This document shows positions 3,046 to 24,085 of a stretch of 24,648 bases of DNA, piece by piece. Where the stretch lies: IMG/VR virus record IMGVR_UViG_3300044858_002099, positions 1-24,648 of that record, one strand, 5' to 3'. Numbering within the stretch: position 1 is the first letter of the stretch; every line of letters begins with the position of its first letter. The translations under genes and the position numbers were made by a program. Origin of the DNA: a virus. The notes under the pieces are model-generated. The model was not told the origin of the DNA and searched no databases. It saw only the letters and a list, made by a program, of their open reading frames with translations.

Positions 3046-4871
3046 AGCACCTGAATCACGCTTGCGGAAGTCTCGCAATACACCCCCGCGTTCTGCCATA
3101 CCCCGGTGCTGCATTCACCCGTGTACGGGGCAGTCCCGCACGCAGGAACGGCATATTGGAACGGGTATGAACGGCACTTGATCTGCGGCTCGGACGGCAT
3201 CGACCCTAGCCCGCCGCCGCACAGGGATTGCCACCCCGGAACGACAACGACATCGCCAACGGTGACATCAATGAGGGGGTAGCCCTCCACCGTGTCGCAT
3301 CCCGTGACCGTCACGCTCGGGTTCTCCTGAATGCAGATCGTCGTGTCGCAACCGATCTGCTCAATTTGCCGCATCGAATACCGCTCACCGCAGGCGTATT
3401 CCGCAGGCGACAGGCATTGCCGCTCGTACCCGTTCTCCGCGTCCCCGGTCGCGCTCACGGCAAGGTTGATGACATCCGTGAATGACGCAAGGCAATTCGC
3501 CGCAATGGAGTAGTCGGACAAGACTCTTTGCGCGGCGCACACATACAACTTCCGCGACCGACCCTTGAAGATCGCCCGGAACTTGTTGGCGTTCACGATC
3601 TCGCATCGGTCAAACGCGAGTTCGTCCGCGTCCTGACCGCCTGCGCCGTACACGGGACGAGTTCCCGGAGGATCGCCGGGGCAATTGTCGCAAGTCTGCC
3701 GCACACCGAACCAAAAGCACTCTGCCCAAGCCGGGTCAAAGGTTGCGGACAGCCACGGGAAGTTCGTGGACAGAGCGTTGATCGCGTCTGCGATGTTCTT
3801 GGCGTTGCCGCTGAACACGAACACGCTCGGGTCGCTGAATGCACCGCCGGGACACAAAGCAAGGCGAATACCCGTGTCTCCGCTTCCCCATACCGTGCCT
3901 GCGCTCCACGGCGTAACCGGGCTTCCTCCCTCAAAGATCGCTTCCAACTGCTCCAACGCATCGGGATCGTCGGGATCGACCACCGTTGAGCAGAAGTCGT
4001 AGGTGACGGTCAGCACATCCTCCTCAAACCATTCCTGCTCCGCTTCTTCGTCAAGGCACGGGTTCACCGCGTAGCAAGTCCGCACCGCAAAGGTCTGCGA
4101 AGGATCTTCGCAGTAGTCCAAATTCGGATCGACGCCTTCGCAGGGGTCGATGTCGCAGCACTCGCCGCAAGGATTGCATTCCGCGCACTTCAGAAACACC
4201 GTCTGTTCATAGGTGCGCTGCCCCAAGCACGATGACAGCGCATCGGTCGGGATGCACGATCCGATCTGCTGCGGGTGAAATACCTTCGCGTTGAAATGCT
4301 CAATTGGTTCGCATCCATCGCAGGGCTGATCCCAATTTCGCCCGAACGATGCGTAGCAATAGGTCATGGTGGACTGCACCGTGACGGGCTTCGACGGAAC
4401 GATTCCCCATTGGTCGGCTAGGTTGTATGGCTCAAACACATACGCATAGCAGGCGTTCCCGACGAGAGGGTCGATGTACGCCGCTTGCGTCAGGCAATTG
4501 TCGGGCGGTTCGATGACGGGGAAGTCGCAGCACCCCGCCTCCTCCGGGTCGATGATCGTCGTGCCGATGTATGTGCCGATGTTCCACGGACCCGCCCCGG
4601 TCGGGCACACGCCGCTTGGGTTCGGCACCACCGCCGTCATCACATAGACGCAGCACCCAACCTTGATCTTGATGCACTTCCCCGGCAACAGAACGACAGG
4701 CGTGATGAGTCCCTGCGCGGACGCATAGGACGGACACCACTTCATGTCCACGCCCCCGGCGCACTCAAAGTCGCAGCACGGGTACGCCTCGCACGGAGTG
4801 AACACATAGTATTCCGGCGGCCACGGGGAGCCACCACCGCAGCAGCAGGAGTACGCCGTGCTTGCGCTCAC
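3042..4871 (-). CDS. Large cysteine-rich phage protein, unknown function
   Basis: This 609-residue protein contains about 48 cysteines spread along its length. The N-terminus reads SASTAYSCCCGGG, and later clusters include CEAYPCCDFEC, CAECNPCGECC and CDNCPGDPPG. It is also acidic, with a DEEAEQEWFEED stretch near the middle. There is no signal peptide or membrane segment, so an oxidised disulfide-rich form would need folding after lysis or outside the reducing cytoplasm; metal binding is the alternative. I chose the GTG at 4871, which overlaps the upstream stop as GTGA, over an ATG at 4907 that would overlap the upstream gene by 40 bases. It sits after the membrane genes, where late structural or host-interaction genes are often found. 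I do not recognise the family. Confidence 0.8.
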   Translation of the reverse strand: MSASTAYSCCCGGGSPWPPEYYVFTPCEAYPCCDFECAGGVDMKWCPSYASAQGLITPVVLLPGKCIKIKVGCCVYVMTAVVPNPSGVCPTGAGPWNIGTYIGTTIIDPEEAGCCDFPVIEPPDNCLTQAAYIDPLVGNACYAYVFEPYNLADQWGIVPSKPVTVQSTMTYCYASFGRNWDQPCDGCEPIEHFNAKVFHPQQIGSCIPTDALSSCLGQRTYEQTVFLKCAECNPCGECCDIDPCEGVDPNLDYCEDPSQTFAVRTCYAVNPCLDEEAEQEWFEEDVLTVTYDFCSTVVDPDDPDALEQLEAIFEGGSPVTPWSAGTVWGSGDTGIRLALCPGGAFSDPSVFVFSGNAKNIADAINALSTNFPWLSATFDPAWAECFWFGVRQTCDNCPGDPPGTRPVYGAGGQDADELAFDRCEIVNANKFRAIFKGRSRKLYVCAAQRVLSDYSIAANCLASFTDVINLAVSATGDAENGYERQCLSPAEYACGERYSMRQIEQIGCDTTICIQENPSVTVTGCDTVEGYPLIDVTVGDVVVVPGWQSLCGGGLGSMPSEPQIKCRSYPFQYAVPACGTAPYTGECSTGVWQNAGVYCETSASVIQVL

Positions 4872-4984
4872 TTGAGTCGGTGGCCGTACTTGCCCTTGAC
4901 GAACCATCCGGCACCGAAGGCGACGAGCGCCACGAGAGCCGTGTAGAAGAAGGTTCCGAGAGCGTCAGCGAGAATCGGCGTCAT
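4868..4984 (-). CDS. 38-residue single-span membrane peptide
   Basis: The ORF starts at an ATG that overlaps the upstream stop as ATGA (4981-4984) and ends in TGA overlapping the next start as GTGA. The peptide is MTPILADALGTFFYTALVAL followed by VAFGAGW and a basic tail KGKYGHRLK. It is one hydrophobic helix with a positive C-terminus, so probably N-out/C-in. Position and topology fit a small lysis-region membrane protein (holin, antiholin or a small regulator). The tight coupling on both sides is the main evidence that it is a real gene. Confidence 0.7.
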   Translation of the reverse strand: MTPILADALGTFFYTALVALVAFGAGWFVKGKYGHRLK

Positions 4985-5478
4985 GCTTTGTCCTTGTCTT
5001 TCCTGCGTGCTTTGGCGCGGCGGTACGCAAGGTCGAAACTTTCGTCTTGCGCCCGCAGCGCCGCGATGAATTCCCGCTCCCCTTCGGGGCGGTCGGGGTT
5101 GAGCATATCGACGGCGAGTTCCGCCGTTGCTTGCTTTCGGCGGGGAACCCACCCCAATAGAACACGGATGAAGTTGCCGAGCCCTGTCTGCCAAAGCACA
5201 ACCACGACAGCAACCGCGACCACCGCCCCGGCGCACCACGCGAGGACGGACATCCACGCGGGGGTTCGGTCTGCCGTGCCGGGGAGTTCTTCGTGGATCG
5301 TCGCCGCGAGTTCTTCGATGCGCTTCGCATGGGCTACCGTCACCTTGTCCCCGGTCGCGGTTCCATGCTCCACGAGCAAAGAAGCCTCCGACCGGATTTC
5401 GTTCGCGCTTGCCGCGATCCTCGCGGTCGGGCTGCACCCGGCAAGCAGCAGCGCAAGCGCCGCCGCCGCCCGTGTCAC
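4981..5478 (-). CDS. Lipoprotein with internal transmembrane segment, spanin-like candidate
   Basis: This 165-residue protein begins at a GTG that overlaps the stop of the upstream gene as GTGA. The N-terminus MTRAAAALALLLAGC is a lipoprotein signal with lipobox LAGC, giving a lipid-modified Cys15. About 60 polar, helix-prone residues follow, then a strong membrane segment around residues 75-100 (CAGAVVAVAVVVVLW) and a charged C-terminal tail ending RRAKARRKDKDKA. A lipid anchor plus a later membrane span is the layout of one-piece spanins, which link outer and inner membranes in lysis of Gram-negative hosts. The ~65-residue tail after the span is longer than usual for them. The lysis role is inferred from topology and neighbours. 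Confidence 0.6.
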   Translation of the reverse strand: MTRAAAALALLLAGCSPTARIAASANEIRSEASLLVEHGTATGDKVTVAHAKRIEELAATIHEELPGTADRTPAWMSVLAWCAGAVVAVAVVVVLWQTGLGNFIRVLLGWVPRRKQATAELAVDMLNPDRPEGEREFIAALRAQDESFDLAYRRAKARRKDKDKA

Positions 5479-5741
5479 TTGCCCTCCATCCGCTCCAACC
5501 GCTTCTCAAGCATCGCCACCCGCTCACCGATGACGCGAATCTGCATATTCGCGTCCGCGTACCGCTCCTTCATCACCTTGATGTCGGACGCGATCTCCGA
5601 CAGCATCCGGCCCTGAGCCTCGTCCGATTCCGACCGCCTGCCGATGTAGACGAGCGAACCGATGATGAGGCTGATCGTCAGGAGAAGTTGCGCTTTCTCC
5701 AACCAAAGACGGGTCGCGGTCGTGGTCTGAATTTCGGCCAT
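5475..5741 (-). CDS. Holin-like membrane protein with coiled-coil tail
   Basis: This 88-residue protein has one membrane segment near residues 18-36 (LLLTISLIIGSLVYIG), then a long amphipathic helix with heptad character (MLSEIASDIKVMKERY to LEKRLERMEGK). One span plus a cytoplasmic coiled coil is common in small phage holins, and it opens a run of three coupled membrane-protein genes after the fibers. The Shine-Dalgarno site is weak (GAGAT). Holin function is inferred; a tail-associated membrane or superinfection protein is an alternative. No endolysin is seen nearby. Confidence 0.6.
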   Translation of the reverse strand: MAEIQTTTATRLWLEKAQLLLTISLIIGSLVYIGRRSESDEAQGRMLSEIASDIKVMKERYADANMQIRVIGERVAMLEKRLERMEGK

Positions 5742-5772
5742 GTCGTTATCTCACGGAATTCCTTGTGAAAGG

Positions 5773-6036
5773 TCAAGACCAAACCACCATCGGATGTTTT
5801 GGCTTGGAAATCAGGATTGGCGAAAGCACCTGAATTTGCTCCACGGTCAAGGCTTCTGCCGTTTTCAGGTTGGCGTGCCATCCCTCAATCGGCTGTTCGT
5901 CAATGACGAGCGTTCCAATCATCGCCAATGCCCATCCGGGATTGAAAATGGGCAAGATGCCCGCCGCATCAAGAAGGGTTCGCACTTGGCGTTCGTCGAT
6001 GCCGCGAATCCAATATTCGTTGTTGCCTTCGTTCAT
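5773..6036 (-). CDS. Small fiber-partner protein, tail copy
   Basis: This 87-residue protein starts at an ATG overlapping the fiber stop as ATGA, with AGGAA upstream (MNEGNNEYWIRGIDER). Its second half contains IEGWHANLKT and KPKHPMVVW. The protein encoded at 20444-20767, after the head-block spike, has LPGWHANLRT and TPKHPVRVW in the same order. The two are clear paralogs, each coupled to a lectin-like fiber. Such small genes directly after fibers often encode assembly chaperones or fiber-tip cofactors; that is inference. An upstream extension to 6114 exists but would overlap the fiber gene, so I reject it. Confidence 0.8.
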   Translation of the reverse strand: MNEGNNEYWIRGIDERQVRTLLDAAGILPIFNPGWALAMIGTLVIDEQPIEGWHANLKTAEALTVEQIQVLSPILISKPKHPMVVWS

Positions 6037-7913
6037 TGCGTCATTTCCTGCAATTGCGCGTCCGTCCAAGTCCCGGCCCGCCATTCCACCTTTCGGATGA
6101 TGACATTGGGCCATTTGGTGTAACTCGCCGGAACGCCGCCGCTGTCCGTGGCTTCTGCTCCAAGCGTCAGGAAGTCAATTGCGCTGAATGATGTGATGTC
6201 GTTGGTGCCCGACACCACCGATGAACCGTTGATGGAAAACCGAGAGTTGGTTCCGTTCCAATAGTGAACGGCCTTCTGCACGCCGCTTGTGCCAATGGTT
6301 CCGGGCGATGTGCTGCCGCTAGACCAAAATGCACGCGCCGCCGTGGTGCTGCTTGCCTCAATTCCCAATTGCGTGTTGGCCCCATCGTCCGTGCTGATGA
6401 TCGTGCCCGCCTGTCCCGGCGGATAGAAATGCACCACCAACGCGCCCGGATCTCCCCAAGAAGTCACGAGCGAGTCCAACAGGCTCACAAATTCTTCGGG
6501 ACGAATGACCGCAGCATTCGTTGTCGGTATGTATGAAGTCATCTTTCCCGCTGCTTCCGTTTGGAATCCCCAACAGAACGCGATGTCCTTTTCATCGCCC
6601 GCTGCGACCGTGTATTGGATGTAGTTCACAAACCAAGTCGGCGTCATTGATGGAGTGCCGCCGTAATACACCTGTGCGTTTGTATTGTTTGCTGCTGATG
6701 TTGCCGTGATCCAAATGCGATACCATCCGTTTCCGTAACTTTCGATTCCCTGCGAACCATTGGGCGTGCCTTTCGTTGCTGTCGATCCCGCCCCACCAAT
6801 GGTTCCGGCAACCAAATCAAATGTCGCAGCAAAACCCGTTGCGGTGCCGCCTTCAAAGTCAAGCGTCATGTAGAAGAAGTTGTTTCGCGTGTTTGATGAC
6901 GGCTTCTTCACAAACATGGATGCCACGTATGTCGATCCGGCAGTAAATGTAAAAGCCTTTTGGCCATGATGGAAAGATGTCCCGGCCGCTTCCACAAGCG
7001 TATCTGCCGTCATTGTGTTATTCGGTGCCGTGGTTGAGTTGGCCGTTACCGTGACTAAAGTTCCTGTGTTCGTAACCTCGCTGTTCAAGAATCGGTTCGT
7101 CCTGCTCTCCTCCACCAGAAGCCCGAGCCGGGTTCCGCTGCTGCTGTGCGTCAGGCGAGGAATGCCGTTGGTGCTTGTGGTCGTGAGACTGTAGGGAAGC
7201 GGGGATGACCCAACAACAACCTGAGCGCCCCACAACCACAACGAACGGGCCACCGAATTGTTTACATAAGACGGATTTCTTGTGGCCGTCGGATTGTTGT
7301 CGGTGAACGAAATATTGAAAGCGCGACCGTTGGTTGTGATGTTGTCACCCTTCAGCCAACACCGATACCAACCGTTGCCCACATTCTCCATGCCCGCCAC
7401 CAACCCGGCTGCTGTTCCGGCAGACCCAAGCACTCCATTTGCCAAGTCGAAGTTCTGCCAAAAATCGGTGCCGAATGTAGTGTCTGCGACCGAAAATTGA
7501 ATGACGGTTGCAGTGTCTGCCTTTGCGTATACGGACAGGGTGTACGAAAGTCCCGCCGTAAAGGTGATGTTGGCCGTAGAAATACGGCGTTCTCTCGCGA
7601 GAGTGCCAATGGAACCTTCAGTCACCGTGTCTGCGGTCATTGTCCCGTCAGGCGCAGTCGTGGTGTTGGTCGTTTCGGTCGTGTGTGTGTTTACCCATGT
7701 AGTGCCGAAATCCTCAGACTGCAAGCACAGGTTGGCAGCATTGGTAGCGATGTATCCGCTGCTGTTCACATAGGTTCCGGCGGTCCGCAACGATCTGTAG
7801 GTGTAGTTTGTTCCGTTAGACCACGGCTCACCCGCGCTGAAATCAAGAACCCATGACGGCGCGGGCAACAACGATGCAACACGCGAGAAGAACGATTTGG
7901 TGGCAGCAAACAT
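6033..7913 (-). CDS. Lectin-like phage fiber/spike protein, tail copy
   Basis: This 626-residue protein contains two copies of a fold seen in phage head-spike/fiber and carbohydrate-binding proteins. The hallmarks are LCLQSEDFGTTW and FLNSEV, TAPDGTMTADT and TAPNNTMTADT, FTAGLSYTLSVYAK and FTAGSTYVASMFVKK, and GNGWYRCW and GNGWYRIW. A region of SYIPTTNAAVIRP follows, and then a C-terminal concanavalin-like part (GIEASSTTAARAFW, WNGTNSRFSINGS). It probably binds cell-surface glycans. It lies three bases after the tail fiber gene and has no ribosome site of its own, suggesting coupling. The same hallmarks occur in the protein at 20764-22545 in the head block. Confidence 0.8.
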   Translation of the reverse strand: MFAATKSFFSRVASLLPAPSWVLDFSAGEPWSNGTNYTYRSLRTAGTYVNSSGYIATNAANLCLQSEDFGTTWVNTHTTETTNTTTAPDGTMTADTVTEGSIGTLARERRISTANITFTAGLSYTLSVYAKADTATVIQFSVADTTFGTDFWQNFDLANGVLGSAGTAAGLVAGMENVGNGWYRCWLKGDNITTNGRAFNISFTDNNPTATRNPSYVNNSVARSLWLWGAQVVVGSSPLPYSLTTTSTNGIPRLTHSSSGTRLGLLVEESRTNRFLNSEVTNTGTLVTVTANSTTAPNNTMTADTLVEAAGTSFHHGQKAFTFTAGSTYVASMFVKKPSSNTRNNFFYMTLDFEGGTATGFAATFDLVAGTIGGAGSTATKGTPNGSQGIESYGNGWYRIWITATSAANNTNAQVYYGGTPSMTPTWFVNYIQYTVAAGDEKDIAFCWGFQTEAAGKMTSYIPTTNAAVIRPEEFVSLLDSLVTSWGDPGALVVHFYPPGQAGTIISTDDGANTQLGIEASSTTAARAFWSSGSTSPGTIGTSGVQKAVHYWNGTNSRFSINGSSVVSGTNDITSFSAIDFLTLGAEATDSGGVPASYTKWPNVIIRKVEWRAGTWTDAQLQEMTQ

Positions 7914-7916
7914 GGT

Positions 7917-10037
7917 TCAGGGCGCGAAGTTCTGAATGAACGATCCGTACCAATTCGTCCCGTCCGCAAAGAACGAAAGGATGTCCATGCGACCGAGCGT
8001 GGCCGTGATGACCGGAGCCGTGCCGCCCGACCACTTGACGCCCGTAAAGGTCGCCGTGGTCGTGCTTCCCGATGTCGGCTGACGAAGAAGAAGAACGAAG
8101 GACTTTCCCGCCGTGGCGGTCGGCATCGTGAAGGTGCAGGCCGTTGCGGAAGTCAGGGTGGCCGTCTGCACCGTGCCGTTCGTCAGGGACAGCGTGTGGC
8201 TTGCACCTACCGTTCCGATGGAGACAACGCCCTCTGTGTACCCAAGAAATGTGGTATTTCCCCCCATCTCAACATTAGGGCCGTTTGTTGTCATCACGGT
8301 AGCGGTTGACGATTGAAGCGTGTCCCCGCCCAAAATCATGTTCGATACAACGGTCAAGTTCCGATTGGCCGTAATGTCCGCGTTTCCTGCATCAAGCGTG
8401 AGGTTCGTAACTCCCGCAAGATTCTTGATGGCGTTGCCTTCAATCTTGATGCTGCCTGTTACGGTCACATCGCCGCCCGTTGTCCACGATGGCCCTCCGG
8501 TAGTGAGGTTTGCAGGATCGACCACGCCATTGTCGATTGTCCAAGTCGCGCCCGTGGCCGATACGGTAATGTCGCCCTTGTCGCCGTCCCCCTGCGTGGC
8601 AAGCGCCCCCAAGCCGAGCGTGGTGCGCTGCGCTGTCGCGTCCGCATCATCAAGCAAGGCGCGCCCCGCCGCCGTGCAAGTGATCTCCTGAACGCTTCCC
8701 GCGCCTGCCGACTGCCGACCAAGCAGTCGATCCGTGGCGGTCACATTCTGAATCTTTGCGTAAGTGACCGCCTGCGCGTCAATTGTCCAAGTTCCGCCCG
8801 TTCCCGAAACGGTGATGTCGCCCTTGTCGCCGTCACCCTGCGTTGCGACCGCGCCAAGCCCGAGCGTGGTGCGCTGCGCTGTCGCGTCCGCATCATCAAG
8901 CAGGGCGCGTCCCGCCGCCGTGCAAGTGATCTCCTGAACGCTTCCCGCGCCTGCCGTGCTTCGCCCGAGCAGGCGATCCGTTGCCGTCACATTCTGAATC
9001 TTTGCGTAAGTGACAACTCCGTTGTCAATCGTCCAAGTCGCGCCCGAACCCGACACCGTGATGTCGCCCTTGTCGCCGTCAAGGATCGTGCCGAGCGTGG
9101 CATTCTGCCATACCCCGAGCGTCCCGTTCCATCGCAGCAGATCGCCCGTGACGGGGCTGCTGATGAGAACATCCGACAACTCCTCCAACTCCTGATAGTT
9201 CTGAATGTTGACGAAGATGCTGCCCGCGCCTGCGCCCGCCTTCTTGACGAGAAAGGCCACCCGAACGCCGTGCTTGGGCTGCGTGGGAAGGGTGGATTGC
9301 ATTTCTCCCGGCGTGGACGAAAGGTAAAGCGGCGTACCTTCCGCTCCTGAATACCCGTTCGTCGTGAGTCCTTGCAGGTAGCCGAACACCTGAACGAATC
9401 CCGTGCTGTTGGCCGCGATGGATTCCGCAGCAACGCCAATGGTGTCCGCGCTCGTCGCCTCAGAGTCCGCGTCCGCAAGGCCGATCATCAACTCCGTTCC
9501 GGCGTGCGCTCCGGCGACATACACCACCGCGCCTTTCGGGATCGCCGTGGTGTTGCTGATGTTTCTGCCGCGCTTGTAGAGCGCCTGCCCTTCCTTCAGG
9601 TTGACATTCGCGCTCAGGCCGAGCGTCAACGTGTTGTAGGTCGTGTCCCAATACTCGCGCCCGATGGCATCGGTCGGCGTGGTCGGGGTCGTGTCGAAGT
9701 CGATCCGCTCCGTGTTCAGGTCGATTACCGTCACTTCGTTGGGCAGTCCGACCGTGATGGTCGTGCCCGTCACCGAGGTCGTGACTTCGTTTGCCGTCCC
9801 CGCGACCGTGATCGTGCCCGTGCTTGTGATCGCCGTGCCGCTGCCGTTGTCGGCGGCAGGGGTGATGCTCGTCACCGTGCCGCTGCCCGCGTTCGACCAT
9901 ACCGTGTCGTAGTTCGTGTTGCTCGCCTTGACGAGAGACTGCCCGGTCGTGCCGCCCGCAGGCACGCCAACACCCGGCTGTCCCTGCGCGACCGTGATCG
10001 TCACATCCGTACCGTTGACCGTGACCGTTGCGCTCAT
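7917..10037 (-). CDS. Tail fiber protein with 82-residue repeats
   Basis: This 706-residue protein is rich in Thr, Gly, Ala and short beta repeats, as expected of trimeric tail fibers. The N-terminal part has VAQGQPGVGVPAGG and GTVTSITPAADNGSGTAI. A middle domain (NTTAIPKGAVVYV to GTPLYLSSTPGEM) is typical of receptor-binding fibers. About residues 316-505 hold two full copies and one partial copy of an 82-residue unit containing GDKGDITVSG, TWTID and VTATDRLLGR. The C-terminus ends GTNWYGSFIQNFAP, consistent with a small tip domain. The ATG directly follows the preceding TAA. It should attach to the baseplate and contact the host first or together with the following lectin-like fiber. Confidence 0.85.
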   Translation of the reverse strand: MSATVTVNGTDVTITVAQGQPGVGVPAGGTTGQSLVKASNTNYDTVWSNAGSGTVTSITPAADNGSGTAITSTGTITVAGTANEVTTSVTGTTITVGLPNEVTVIDLNTERIDFDTTPTTPTDAIGREYWDTTYNTLTLGLSANVNLKEGQALYKRGRNISNTTAIPKGAVVYVAGAHAGTELMIGLADADSEATSADTIGVAAESIAANSTGFVQVFGYLQGLTTNGYSGAEGTPLYLSSTPGEMQSTLPTQPKHGVRVAFLVKKAGAGAGSIFVNIQNYQELEELSDVLISSPVTGDLLRWNGTLGVWQNATLGTILDGDKGDITVSGSGATWTIDNGVVTYAKIQNVTATDRLLGRSTAGAGSVQEITCTAAGRALLDDADATAQRTTLGLGAVATQGDGDKGDITVSGTGGTWTIDAQAVTYAKIQNVTATDRLLGRQSAGAGSVQEITCTAAGRALLDDADATAQRTTLGLGALATQGDGDKGDITVSATGATWTIDNGVVDPANLTTGGPSWTTGGDVTVTGSIKIEGNAIKNLAGVTNLTLDAGNADITANRNLTVVSNMILGGDTLQSSTATVMTTNGPNVEMGGNTTFLGYTEGVVSIGTVGASHTLSLTNGTVQTATLTSATACTFTMPTATAGKSFVLLLRQPTSGSTTTATFTGVKWSGGTAPVITATLGRMDILSFFADGTNWYGSFIQNFAP
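8521..9092 (-). repeat. 246-base in-frame repeats in the tail fiber gene
   Basis: The 20-base word atgtcgcccttgtcgccgtc begins at 8569, 8815 and 9061, exactly 246 bases apart. Long stretches between copies are near-identical at DNA level, for example the block encoding SVQEITCTAAGRALLDDADA. Two units are complete and the third is partial. The DNA similarity suggests recent duplication or ongoing recombination. Confidence 0.9.
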
Positions 10038-20412: not shown

Positions 20413-20447
20413 GCTTGAAGTATTTGGCAATGGCATCAAGGTGTCAA
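20413..20447 (-). promoter_or_regulatory. Sigma-70-like promoter, leaderless start
   Basis: On the minus strand TTGACA (20447-20442) is a perfect -35, followed after 17 bases by AATACT (20424-20419), four of six matches to TATAAT. Six bases later is the ATG of the protease gene (20412), so transcription would begin at or beside the start codon. No Shine-Dalgarno is present, which fits leaderless initiation. The -35 overlaps the stop of the upstream partner gene. Confidence 0.5.
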
Positions 20448-20767
20448 GAACCAAATTGCGCGGCATCTTCCACGATAGGGGTTGTCTCAATGACTCCCAT
20501 CGTCGGAACATCGTCAAACCACACCCGAACGGGGTGCTTGGGCGTGTTGATGACCGGGAGTTCGTCAATCTGCGAATCCAAGAGTTCCACCGTGGTTCTC
20601 AGGTTGGCGTGCCAACCGGGGAGCGCCTGCCCGTCCTTGACGATCCCGCCGATGATTGACACTTCCATGCCGGGGAACGGGTTGCCCTCGCTGTCGATGA
20701 CGGCGGCTGCGTTCAGCGCGGCGTTCATGGCGGCTTCGTCGGTTGCCCGGAGGTAGTAGTCGCTCAT
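20444..20767 (-). CDS. Small fiber-partner protein, head copy
   Basis: This 107-residue protein starts at an ATG overlapping the spike stop as ATGA (MSDYYLRATDEAAMNAALNA). It shares GWHANLRT, the LPVINTPKHPVRVW segment and overall length with the 87-residue protein at 5773-6036. The C-terminus (PIVEDAAQFGS) is extended relative to that copy. Position directly after a lectin-like spike in both places suggests a folding helper or a second component of the spike. The longer frame to 20812 overlaps the spike gene and is not used. Confidence 0.8.
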   Translation of the reverse strand: MSDYYLRATDEAAMNAALNAAAVIDSEGNPFPGMEVSIIGGIVKDGQALPGWHANLRTTVELLDSQIDELPVINTPKHPVRVWFDDVPTMGVIETTPIVEDAAQFGS

Positions 20768-22545
20768 GCGGTAATAGCCTGCATGGTGGCGTTTGGCAGG
20801 CGGGTTGGCCAATAGGCGAGGCGAGAGATGTTCGTGTTCAGGTAGTTGCCCGACAAGCGAGAGCCAATGGACATCTGCGTGGGAGTCGGAATCGTTCCTG
20901 AAGTTGCAATAGCCGGAGCCAATCCATTGTAACTCGCCGCTCCATTAGCGACGGCATATGCGTGCGCGACACGCAAAGGGGCTGTCAAAGTCACGGATGT
21001 CAGGGCAATGCCCCATTGAGCAACATTCCCGTCAGTATTTAGCGCAATCAACGATGTCGAACTATTTGTGGCAACCGCCAATCGTTCGGCATTGCTGTTG
21101 TTGTCGATCTGATATGCAAATCCTGACAGGTAGCCGCTTGGAATGCCCTGATGCGACACAAGCACCGTCCCCTCCGCTTGGTTGTACCAAGACGAGAAGT
21201 TAGTGCCCGTCATCAAGGCGCTGTCCGCTCCACGCGCAACCGTGGCGGTCGTGGTCGGGATGTAGGAGGAGGCGAAGGATTGCTGTTCAATTTGTATTCC
21301 CCACAGATAGAACGAATCGCCCGCAGTAGCCGTACCGCCGTTGAAGCCGTAGAAGAATCGCAGGTTGTTTCCCGACACGAAGGTCGTCACGGACAATGCA
21401 ATACGCACCCATCCATTGCCGACATCCGTGGCCGTCATCGTCCCTGTACCCGATGTAATTGCGGTGGCTTTGGTCGCAAATGTGTATGTGCCTGACAGAA
21501 TCGTCGTGCTTGTCGTGCTGTCAACGATCCAAAATTGCACGACAGCCAACGATCCTTGCTTGATGAAAATCGAGCCCGTTGCGTTGGTTCCGGCAATTGC
21601 ATGAGTGCTGCCGCGAAGCGATGTTGCACCAGTCGTGGTTGCAGACACTAACTCCCCGGATGTCGTTCCATCAGGGGCGGTGATCTTGGTGGCCCCAATC
21701 GTAATGTTGGTTCGTGCTGCACCGTTGGTAATGTCGGCGCTGTAAAGTTGCAGGTTCGTCGCCCCACCTTCGATCAGCAGGCCACGGGCTTCCCCGGTGA
21801 TCGGGTCGTTCTCAAACCTTGGCACACCAATTCCCGCCGCAGCAATCTGCCCCTGCGTGATCGCCGCCGTGGTCGTTGGGATGTACGGGGTCAGCAGGGA
21901 GCCTTCGGTGAGTTGGGCACCCCAAACCTCGACGGTTGGGTTGGCGTTGATGATGCCGTGGCCGGAAACGCTTTGCCGAAGACCAAACTGAACAATTGTT
22001 GCAGCCCCGGCAATTTCCGTAATGATGAATCTTTGCCACCCGGTAGTCAGCGTCAGAAGCGTGTATGCCGCTTGTCCTACATGGCGAACAACAATTTTCT
22101 CTCCACCAACCGTTCCGCGAAGCCAAATTGAAAAGGTATATGGCTGACCAATTACGAGACCACTCAAATTTTGCACTAAACTTGAAAAGTCGCTTGATGA
22201 CGTTCCGGCGGCAGTGTTGAACACGATCGTGTCTGCCGTGGTCGTCCCGTCCGGGGCAACGGCGTTGTTCGCTGTTCTGATTGGAGCAACGCCCGTTCCG
22301 CCAAAGAAACTCGACCATATTGCCGTGACATCGAACTCCTGACTGCGAAGCAGCAGGTTCTGATTGAACGGCCCACGGTAGTAGGTGCCCGTGGTCGTGC
22401 GCTGAAAGTCGATGCGCGGATCAAGAATGCCCGTGCGGAAGTCAAGGTTCAGCGTGGCATCTTCCTGAAAGTCATTCGACAGCAGGACCGCCGATTCCGA
22501 AGAACCGGGCAGGCCGGGGCGGTTGAGTCGCCTTGCGCGGCGCAT
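20764..22545 (-). CDS. Lectin-like phage spike protein, head-block copy
   Basis: This 593-residue protein has a short, Arg-rich N-terminus (RRARRLNRPG), then NLDFRTGILDPRIDF and the head-spike/fiber hallmarks LLLRSQEFDVTAIW, APDGTTTADTIV, FSIWLRG, ITEIAG and SYIPTTTATVARG, and a C-terminal jellyroll-like part with SYNGLAPAIATSG and SIGSRLSG. Proteins of this type are annotated in other phages as head spike fiber domains and are thought to bind glycans. It lies within the head genes, unlike its paralog at 6033-7913. The TAATG overlap with the preceding stop suggests coupling. Confidence 0.8.
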   Translation of the reverse strand: MRRARRLNRPGLPGSSESAVLLSNDFQEDATLNLDFRTGILDPRIDFQRTTTGTYYRGPFNQNLLLRSQEFDVTAIWSSFFGGTGVAPIRTANNAVAPDGTTTADTIVFNTAAGTSSSDFSSLVQNLSGLVIGQPYTFSIWLRGTVGGEKIVVRHVGQAAYTLLTLTTGWQRFIITEIAGAATIVQFGLRQSVSGHGIINANPTVEVWGAQLTEGSLLTPYIPTTTAAITQGQIAAAGIGVPRFENDPITGEARGLLIEGGATNLQLYSADITNGAARTNITIGATKITAPDGTTSGELVSATTTGATSLRGSTHAIAGTNATGSIFIKQGSLAVVQFWIVDSTTSTTILSGTYTFATKATAITSGTGTMTATDVGNGWVRIALSVTTFVSGNNLRFFYGFNGGTATAGDSFYLWGIQIEQQSFASSYIPTTTATVARGADSALMTGTNFSSWYNQAEGTVLVSHQGIPSGYLSGFAYQIDNNSNAERLAVATNSSTSLIALNTDGNVAQWGIALTSVTLTAPLRVAHAYAVANGAASYNGLAPAIATSGTIPTPTQMSIGSRLSGNYLNTNISRLAYWPTRLPNATMQAITA

Positions 22546-23081
22546 TAGAGGGTGGTCACGAACACGCCCATCGTCGGCGTGCCGCTTGCGGCTCGGAACT
22601 GAACCGTCACCATCTGACTGCCTGCGATGTCCACCATCGCGGACGCGGGCTCAACATTGGTCGCCGCTGCCGTTCCGGGGCTGTAGAGATTCCCGGCAGG
22701 GGTTCCCGCCACCTGTGCGATGACGGCAAACGGTCGCTGCGTTGCGCCGTCCATGCTCCAAGTCGGGACGGTGCCCGTGGTGAACGACAGCGAGAAGTCC
22801 GCAAGCACGGTCGGCACATAGGTCGTGTTGCCCGTGCTAGAGTCGATGCGGATGTTCCACCCGACGAGGCGCATCCCCGTGGCCGCGCCGATGCTCGTGG
22901 CTGCCGAGTACGGCAGGACGCGCATGAGGCTCGGGGAGATGGCATTGACAACCTGATCGTGCAGCACCCCGGCGGCGGGCTTGGTCGTGGTGGGTGCGAT
23001 GGAGGGATAAGAGGCGGGGACGGTCGGGAGGGTGACGTTCCCGTACTGCCTCTGAACGGTGATGATCTGTGCTTCTGCCAT
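22545..23081 (-). CDS. Virion-protein-like gene upstream of the head spike
   Basis: This 178-residue, beta-rich, Thr/Ala/Val-rich protein (QIITVQRQYGNVTLPTVP, NAISPSLMRVLPYSAATS, MVTVQFRAASGTPTMGVFV) has no membrane or signal segments. AGGAA is about seven bases before the ATG. Its stop overlaps the spike ATG (TAATG). It may form the base that anchors the spike to the capsid; this is inferred from coupling only. I do not recognise the family. Confidence 0.6.
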   Translation of the reverse strand: MAEAQIITVQRQYGNVTLPTVPASYPSIAPTTTKPAAGVLHDQVVNAISPSLMRVLPYSAATSIGAATGMRLVGWNIRIDSSTGNTTYVPTVLADFSLSFTTGTVPTWSMDGATQRPFAVIAQVAGTPAGNLYSPGTAAATNVEPASAMVDIAGSQMVTVQFRAASGTPTMGVFVTTL

Positions 23082-23101: not shown

Positions 23102-24085
23102 TTACGCCTTCGCCTTGCTAGACCCCTTCGCGCCGGGGCGGGACGAAACGGACTTCGCAATCTTCAGATTGCCAACCGCCGCAATCACATCGGCATCCGT
23201 GTATTCCGTCGAATTGTCTCGGATTTCCTCGGCTTCGTTGTACCACCGCGTCCCCTTCATGCTTGCGTATTCACGCAGCATCTTCTGTAGGAACGCAAAC
23301 CCCGCGTTCGTCATAAACTTCGCCTTCGCGCCGGGGCGGGAGAAATGCTGCGCTGCCTTTGCCTTGACTTGCGCCAATCTCTTTGACAGACCGGGCAACT
23401 TCGTGGCTCCAATGCTTGCCTCTGCCCTGCGAATCAACTCTTTGACTTCTTCAACTTCCCACTTGAGCAAGCGAGGGGAATACAGGATTTGCTCTGCCTT
23501 CCCGATGATGTCACGCAATTCATCATCCGCCCCCATCTTCGCCTTCGCGCCGGGGCGGGAGAAAGTCACTCCGGGATATTTGGCAAGCAACTTGGCCTTC
23601 AAAGCCGTGTAAAGCGCGTAACGCTTTGAATTGAGTTCCGGGGTCAGATGCCCCATTTCGTCATGCTGCTGCATGATGCGGTTGGCTTCGGCAACATCAC
23701 CGGACGCGCCAACAAACTTCGCAAGCATCACGACATTTTCGCTGTGGTAGTTATCTGCTTCGTTGCGCTTCCACTTCTTCAGAAACGAAGCAAGTGCCGG
23801 ATCTGCGGCCATCTTCGCCTTCGCGCCGGGGCGGGAGAAGCCCATCTTGTCCATGTGCGCCACAAGATCGCGCAACTTGGCGAACGCCGGAATGTCCGCG
23901 TGTCCGTCCACCTTCCACCCGGAAGCGGACTTGCGCGCAACGGCATGACTGCCATCCTTCAGGATAATCGGGACTTCGCGCATGGAACCGTCAAGCATTG
24001 ACGAATCAATGCGCGCAGACTTCACCTTGCCCGCGCTGCCAAGACGCTCCGCAATTGACTTCCGTAGGTCGCTCATGTCCTGCAT
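23102..24085 (-). CDS. SRPG-repeat protein next to the minor head gene
   Basis: This 327-residue basic protein has an N-terminal domain (SDLRKSIAERLG to FAKLRDLVAHMDKM), then FSRPGAKAK at about residues 83-91, 175-183 and 248-256, and a final SSRPGAKGSSKAKA. The motifs separate helical modules of about 65-80 residues. Short FSR-type linkers between modules are known from polyvalent proteins that phages carry in the virion and inject, where they may be protease sites. The related SRPGKAD occurs in the scaffold part of the maturation protease. Position beside the MuF-type protein supports a virion-borne protein. AAGGAG lies ten bases before the ATG. I do not recognise the modules. Confidence 0.75.
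   Translation of the reverse strand: MQDMSDLRKSIAERLGSAGKVKSARIDSSMLDGSMREVPIILKDGSHAVARKSASGWKVDGHADIPAFAKLRDLVAHMDKMGFSRPGAKAKMAADPALASFLKKWKRNEADNYHSENVVMLAKFVGASGDVAEANRIMQQHDEMGHLTPELNSKRYALYTALKAKLLAKYPGVTFSRPGAKAKMGADDELRDIIGKAEQILYSPRLLKWEVEEVKELIRRAEASIGATKLPGLSKRLAQVKAKAAQHFSRPGAKAKFMTNAGFAFLQKMLREYASMKGTRWYNEAEEIRDNSTEYTDADVIAAVGNLKIAKSVSSRPGAKGSSKAKA
23126..23839 (-). repeat. Dispersed 27-base repeat encoding FSRPGAKAK
   Basis: The same 27 bases occur at 23318-23344, 23537-23563 and 23813-23839, and a shortened copy with cgcgccggggcggga lies at 23126-23143. All copies are in frame. Copies two and three are identical for a few bases more. Conservation at DNA level beyond what the peptide needs suggests recent spread, gene conversion or selection on the DNA/RNA. 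Confidence 0.9.

Follow-up and report, generated by a model that had tools for sequence, protein, structure and literature searches.

Related fibre cassettes in the head and tail gene blocks of an uncultured phage, and a candidate socket-and-plug head spike

Introduction

Does a phage that carries related fibre genes among both its head genes and its tail genes display related fibres on both capsid and tail, and are the two copies the product of duplication? The question is raised by IMG/VR virus record IMGVR_UViG_3300044858_002099, a 24.6 kb sequence that was analysed over positions 1 to 24,648 (hereafter the window). A preliminary description recognized two pairs of genes of common layout, one in the head block (22545-20444) and one in the tail block (7913-5773), each consisting of a spike of about 600 residues and a small protein. 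It regarded the pairs as a duplicated cassette, and proposed that the phage presents related glycan-binding modules on capsid and tail, each with a dedicated helper, so that the head copy might aid adherence to mucus or other surfaces and the tail copy host recognition.

Tail fibre assembly chaperones of the Tfa and T4 gp38 type are familiar as the products of a small gene that immediately follows a fibre gene and is linked to the C-terminal type of the fibre. For RcGTA there is good documentation of head spikes with affinity for host polysaccharide, and such spikes have been suggested for a few other viruses. RcGTA, which binds the host capsule, is the nearest characterised case to the locus described here: its spikes mediate attachment to the capsule (PMC7296036, PMC10218006), and in the head spike a base pentamer of Rcc01079 holds one fibre by residues 2-10 (PMC7296036). 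HFTV1 carries capsid turrets built from the TBP gp30 and the THP gp31, the head having galactose-binding-like and deacetylase-like domains (PMC12494034).

Results

All of the window's genes under discussion lie on the minus strand, and no near relative of the window as a whole was found by megablast against 50,697 phage records. Assignments of head and tail genes were based on PHROGs. The head block runs from a minor head or morphogenesis protein (24621-24115; phrog_220, E 9e-17) through a 327-aa gene (23102-24085), a 178-aa gene (22545..23081), a 593-aa spike (20764..22545) and its 107-aa partner (20444..20767) to a putative protease or scaffold gene (20427-19231), a role suggested by its position and a Glu-rich stretch. 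It continues with the MCP (18796-17762), whose homologue in L007 matches the phrog_29 major head protein (E 6e-6), and a head-tail adaptor (17691-17206; phrog_195, E 8e-13). These neighbours, together with the terminase and portal found upstream of the corresponding head genes in the related record L040, bear out the placing of the first pair in the head block. The tail block is marked by a 706-aa fibre protein with DUF5907 repeats (7917..10037; phrog_9017 tail fiber, E 6e-8), directly upstream of a 626-aa spike (6033..7913) and its 87-aa partner (5773..6036), after which come an 88-aa gene and then a 165-aa gene. Both cassettes recur at the two matching places in the sibling record G001, with a counterpart of the 706-aa protein in the equivalent position; the tail small protein of G001 has diverged (YHTNLL).

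That the two cassettes are homologous and share their gene architecture is near certain, and in this respect the preliminary description was correct. Both spikes are open reading frames, and each contains the two hallmark motifs, APDGTxTAD and SYIPTT. Their alignment scores 296 against a mean of 73 for shuffled sequences (maximum 112; z 18), in agreement with BLASTP of head against tail (25 % identity, E 4e-29). Over their first 40 residues the two show no resemblance (z 1.1 in the shuffle test). By sequence, both are related to the GTA head-spike fibre: NF048003 (GTA_spike_fiber), which has a curated cut-off of 36 bits, scores 184.9 bits with the head spike (E 1.9e-54) and 206 bits with the tail spike (E 6.8e-61), and the solved RcGTA head-spike fibre Rcc01080 (6tb9_F3) matches them at E 1.6e-15 and E 1.4e-16, respectively. 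Each spike contains two copies of the domain, which in the head spike stand between an N-terminal anchor peptide and a LamG-like C-terminus. The domain was present in 35 of 35 proteins in an alignment made up mostly of fibres encoded upstream of small-protein genes. Membership of this family makes it probable that the spikes bind glycans.

The small genes are translationally coupled to the spikes in the way that had been described. Each starts with an ATG inside an ATGA overlap with the spike stop codon, at 20767 in the head pair and at 6036 in the tail pair; the listed TTG start of the head gene (20812) is probably unused. Both products contain the GWHANL and PKHPxxVW motifs, they are 38 % identical over 84 aa (BLASTP, E 7e-18), and their alignment scores 146 against a shuffled mean of 26 (maximum 54; z 26). 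The family profile matches the head copy at E 1.4e-30 and the tail copy at E 8e-26. Across the 58 viral loci of the family, 42 of the 49 small genes with a visible upstream gene overlap that gene by ATGA or GTGA. The family corresponds to PHROG 18574, where its function is unannotated, and no Pfam or NCBIfam family reached its cut-off, so the small proteins belong to no described chaperone family. Single-sequence patterns retrieved no relatives of the tail small protein, and the family profile found only three loci in genomes, in Paraburkholderia and Pseudoroseomonas, on which basis no host is assigned. The model of the head small protein (pLDDT 78) has a confident, compact fold up to residue 82; a fold search returned middling matches to common alpha/beta folds only (best Z 4.8), which we do not trust.

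Across the family, the partner gene tracks the C-terminal end of the fibre. The small protein directly follows 30 of 36 distinct fibres with LamG-like ends, none of which is followed by the unrelated ‘CQW’ protein. Glycine-rich-ended fibres are followed by the CQW protein in nine of 12 cases (in one, the small protein comes after it) and never directly by the small protein. Fisher p-values for this association, 5e-9 (30 against nine) or 3e-7 with unpartnered fibres included, are indicative only, because simple patterns at the C-terminus were used to define the classes and related sequences do not count independently. Nine unpartnered fibres that were inspected have an anchor of the MNRANRP type (see below) or are close kin of fibres that do, and the next head gene follows straight on. 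One clade of LamG-ended fibres manages without a partner gene, so the idea that every fibre needs the small protein was rejected. The tracking suggests a fibre-tip chaperone or cap that is dispensable for some fibres.

Head display finds its strongest support in the 178-aa gene, which the preliminary description overlooked. It lies directly upstream of the head spike, with its stop codon overlapping the spike start (TAATG). A profile search of viral contigs found 66 loci of this family; its place, in the lineage of the window as in most relatives, is between the morphogenesis gene and the fibre, ahead of the protease and the MCP. The gene that follows it nearly always opens with an Arg-rich peptide, in the window MRRARRLNRPGLPGSSESAVLLS (22477..22545), for which the consensus is MRRSxRxxRPGLxGSSxSAxLLG with the variants MQRxARxSRPGLxGSS and MNRANRPRMSRxxGSS. 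Between 11 and 22 of the 23 residues are common to sampled fibres with unrelated bodies (first two variants), and the peptide has no counterpart in the window's tail spike. The exceptions are L006, L008, L042, L046 and L052, in which the fibres behind the 178-family gene have clearly different N-termini.

Behind the anchor the bodies change completely, from GTA_spike domains with a LamG-like end to glycine-rich bodies (Gly_rich_2, PF21722, demonstrated for L025, with L016 and L017 similar in appearance), fn3 arrays (L039) and a GDSL esterase. The last is found in L040 (6831-10022, plus strand), where the anchored fibre combines a GDSL esterase domain (PF13472, E 1.2e-12) with fn3 domains and is a possible glycan-deacetylating head spike. 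In the L040 178-family protein (5683-6831, plus strand) a complete GTA_spike-type domain is inserted after the conserved VGW strand. The 178-family proteins of L133-L141 are about 272 aa long and have a smaller insertion close to that position.

From this pattern of sequence conservation we infer that the 178-aa protein serves as a base, bound to the capsid and exposed at its surface, and that the Arg-rich peptide is its plug. A socket-and-plug head spike is suggested because one anchor fronts very different bodies, because a fibre domain lies inside the L040 base, and because the anchor is missing from the tail spike. A model of the 178-aa protein was all-beta and poor (pLDDT 54), and a fold search with it gave no reliable match.

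The plan recalls GhsA/GhsB of RcGTA (Rcc01079/Rcc01080) and gp29/gp30 of phage RcapNL, in which a base gene is likewise followed directly by a fibre gene with a constant N-terminal peptide, and the fibre domain family is the same (NF048003; 6tb9_F3). RcapNL served as the comparison in place of Alphaproteobacteria genomes, a search of which for Rcc01080 relatives yielded no clear ghsAB pair. Its gp29 is clearly related to GhsA (E 2.9e-30 against 6tb9_E3), and the N-terminus of gp30, MGLGLGIGLGLS, resembles the RcGTA docking peptide. The parts themselves differ, however. The bases are 84-85 aa long in those systems and 178 aa here, with no detectable homology; the plug is GLGLGL there and RRxxRxxRPGLxGSS here, a different conserved, Arg-rich peptide standing in the head spike in place of the absent Gly/Leu docking peptide. 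The window's fibre is longer, with its two domains of the fibre family and LamG-like tip, and the window adds a coupled small partner and a paralogous tail cassette within one phage.

Searches of the PDB with the 178-aa protein gave no match from the single sequence (phmmer) and none that was convincing from the profile, and PHROGs and Pfam scans indicated no relation to GhsA. An hhalign comparison with RcapNL gp29 returned a probability of 4 %, and the weak ‘LPF...VVGW’ overlap was dismissed as noise; none of these searches detected homology to GhsA. It is conceivable that the 178-aa protein and Rcc01079 share a fold despite the lack of sequence homology. Because the plan is shared but the base and peptide differ, the locus would work like GhsA/GhsB while not being a member of that system by the tests made. 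The HFTV1 turrets, with a two-part base and head on the capsid, resemble the arrangement proposed here, and the GDSL fibre of L040 is comparable to them in plan; they differ in belonging to an archaeal virus, and the 178-family profile did not convincingly match any of the solved chains, that of HFTV1 included.

The claim that the cassette is duplicated did not stand. A duplication within this phage lineage would account for the common layout and motifs, and for the presence of both cassettes in G001, but it is contradicted by the C-terminal halves of the spikes; we consider it very improbable and rejected it. Over its C-terminal 375 residues the tail spike is 51 % identical to the L047 fibre, which lies behind a 178-family gene in the head position, and about 26 % identical to the window's own head spike, the nearest kin of which are the fibres of L006, L007 and L004 (51-59 % identical). 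Ranked by closeness of their C-terminal halves, the two window spikes stand 20th and 21st of 34 with respect to each other. Nor do the head and tail copies form a sister pair in the small-protein tree, although the tail copy is on a long branch. As the C-terminal likeness across phages exceeds that within the window, fibre bodies have passed from one phage to another, and between the head and tail sites. The partner is likely to travel with its body, less securely so for the tail copy.

Discussion

Our data are consistent with a model, fairly likely as a whole, of a head-spike operon that works like that of RcGTA with an unrelated base and plug, accompanied by a tail cassette. The head cassette would be a three-gene operon in which the 178-aa base docks on the capsid surface and offers a socket, and the 593-aa fibre plugs into it by the Arg-rich N-terminal peptide, so displaying its carbohydrate-binding-type GTA_spike_fiber domains and LamG-like tip. 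The 107-aa protein would aid the folding or capping of that tip. The tail cassette would attach a similar body and partner to the tail through its different N-terminus, downstream of the 706-aa fibre protein. As in RcGTA, head spikes could then provide a reversible, polyvalent hold on glycans of the host surface, and the tail copy would bind at the injection end; bodies with their partners would be traded among phages, and between capsid and tail sites, the local anchor staying in place. What remains of the original proposal is the presence, in the window and in G001 alike, of related glycan-binding-type fibres in both blocks with coupled partners, to which we add an anchor specific to the head spike; display of the 593-aa fibre on the capsid is probable.

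Alternatively, the two spikes could belong to the tail or baseplate, with the 178-aa protein acting as an adaptor for fibres and the location among head genes reflecting only the site of cassette insertion; this seems unlikely to us. In L006, L042, L046 and L052, where the surroundings are visible, the 178-family gene and its fibre do lie in the late or tail region, and gene position alone is therefore no proof of head display; equally, proven head-spike genes need not sit in the head block, as RcapNL gp29/gp30 illustrate, and the head-block position is stable across diverged relatives. PHROGs labels the GTA-fibre family ‘tail protein’, which would suit tail fibres, but it likewise names the GhsA family, which includes gp29 and whose solved member is the base of a capsid spike, ‘tail fiber protein’ (the families concerned are PHROG 12296 and 5939). 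Such labels therefore cannot decide between head and tail, and wrong labelling of head spikes as tail proteins may be widespread. The C-terminal half shared by the tail spike and the head-position fibre of L047 also fits tail fibres in both places, and the absence of the anchor from the tail spike argues against this.

Within the head-spike model, the role of the small protein may be read in two ways. We lean slightly towards a chaperone. Like the genes of Tfa and gp38 chaperones, the small gene lies directly downstream of the fibre and is matched to the fibre's C-terminal type; unlike them, its product falls in no described family and also serves head-block fibres. The small protein may instead remain at the tip of the fibre, as a structural cap or as a second subunit that binds ligand, a tentative reading with which the link between partner identity and C-terminal domain, the compact fold and the partnerless clade all agree, although the strict translational coupling equally fits an assembly factor.

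Under the socket-and-plug model, many uncultured phages would use a second base family, unrelated to that of RcGTA, head display would be recognizable by a short peptide, and receptor-binding bodies would pass between head and tail. A sequence rule follows from it: a 178-family gene upstream together with an RPGL-type peptide would predict head-displayed fibres among proteins now annotated as tail proteins, and the base and peptide may constitute a natural capsid display system. Whether they form a general socket-and-plug platform, bearing unrelated bodies with body-specific partners that move between capsid and tail, is in our judgement evenly balanced.

Several minor observations concern neighbouring genes. 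In the 327-aa gene an SRPGAKAK(M/F)-like motif occurs four times, the final copy being degenerate. Related phages (L018, L039 and L040) have it too, in genes upstream of the 178-family gene that occupy the same position or one close by, and the protease or scaffold gene has a similar SRPGKAD; the motif is possibly a processing or targeting repeat. In the MNRANRP-type clade (L125, L132, L133, L135, L139, L127, L130 and L137) the gene after the fibre, the protease or scaffold, mostly has an extra N-terminal domain (MIDLKPTTEMASNAARGLELREKHGRGGTE...) that is absent from the window's gene. Lastly, the late region of L042 brings together three receptor-binding types, with a 629-aa protein (3742-5631, plus strand), a beta-helix tailspike by sequence appearance, sitting between a tail spike and partner pair and a 178-family gene with its glycine-rich fibre.
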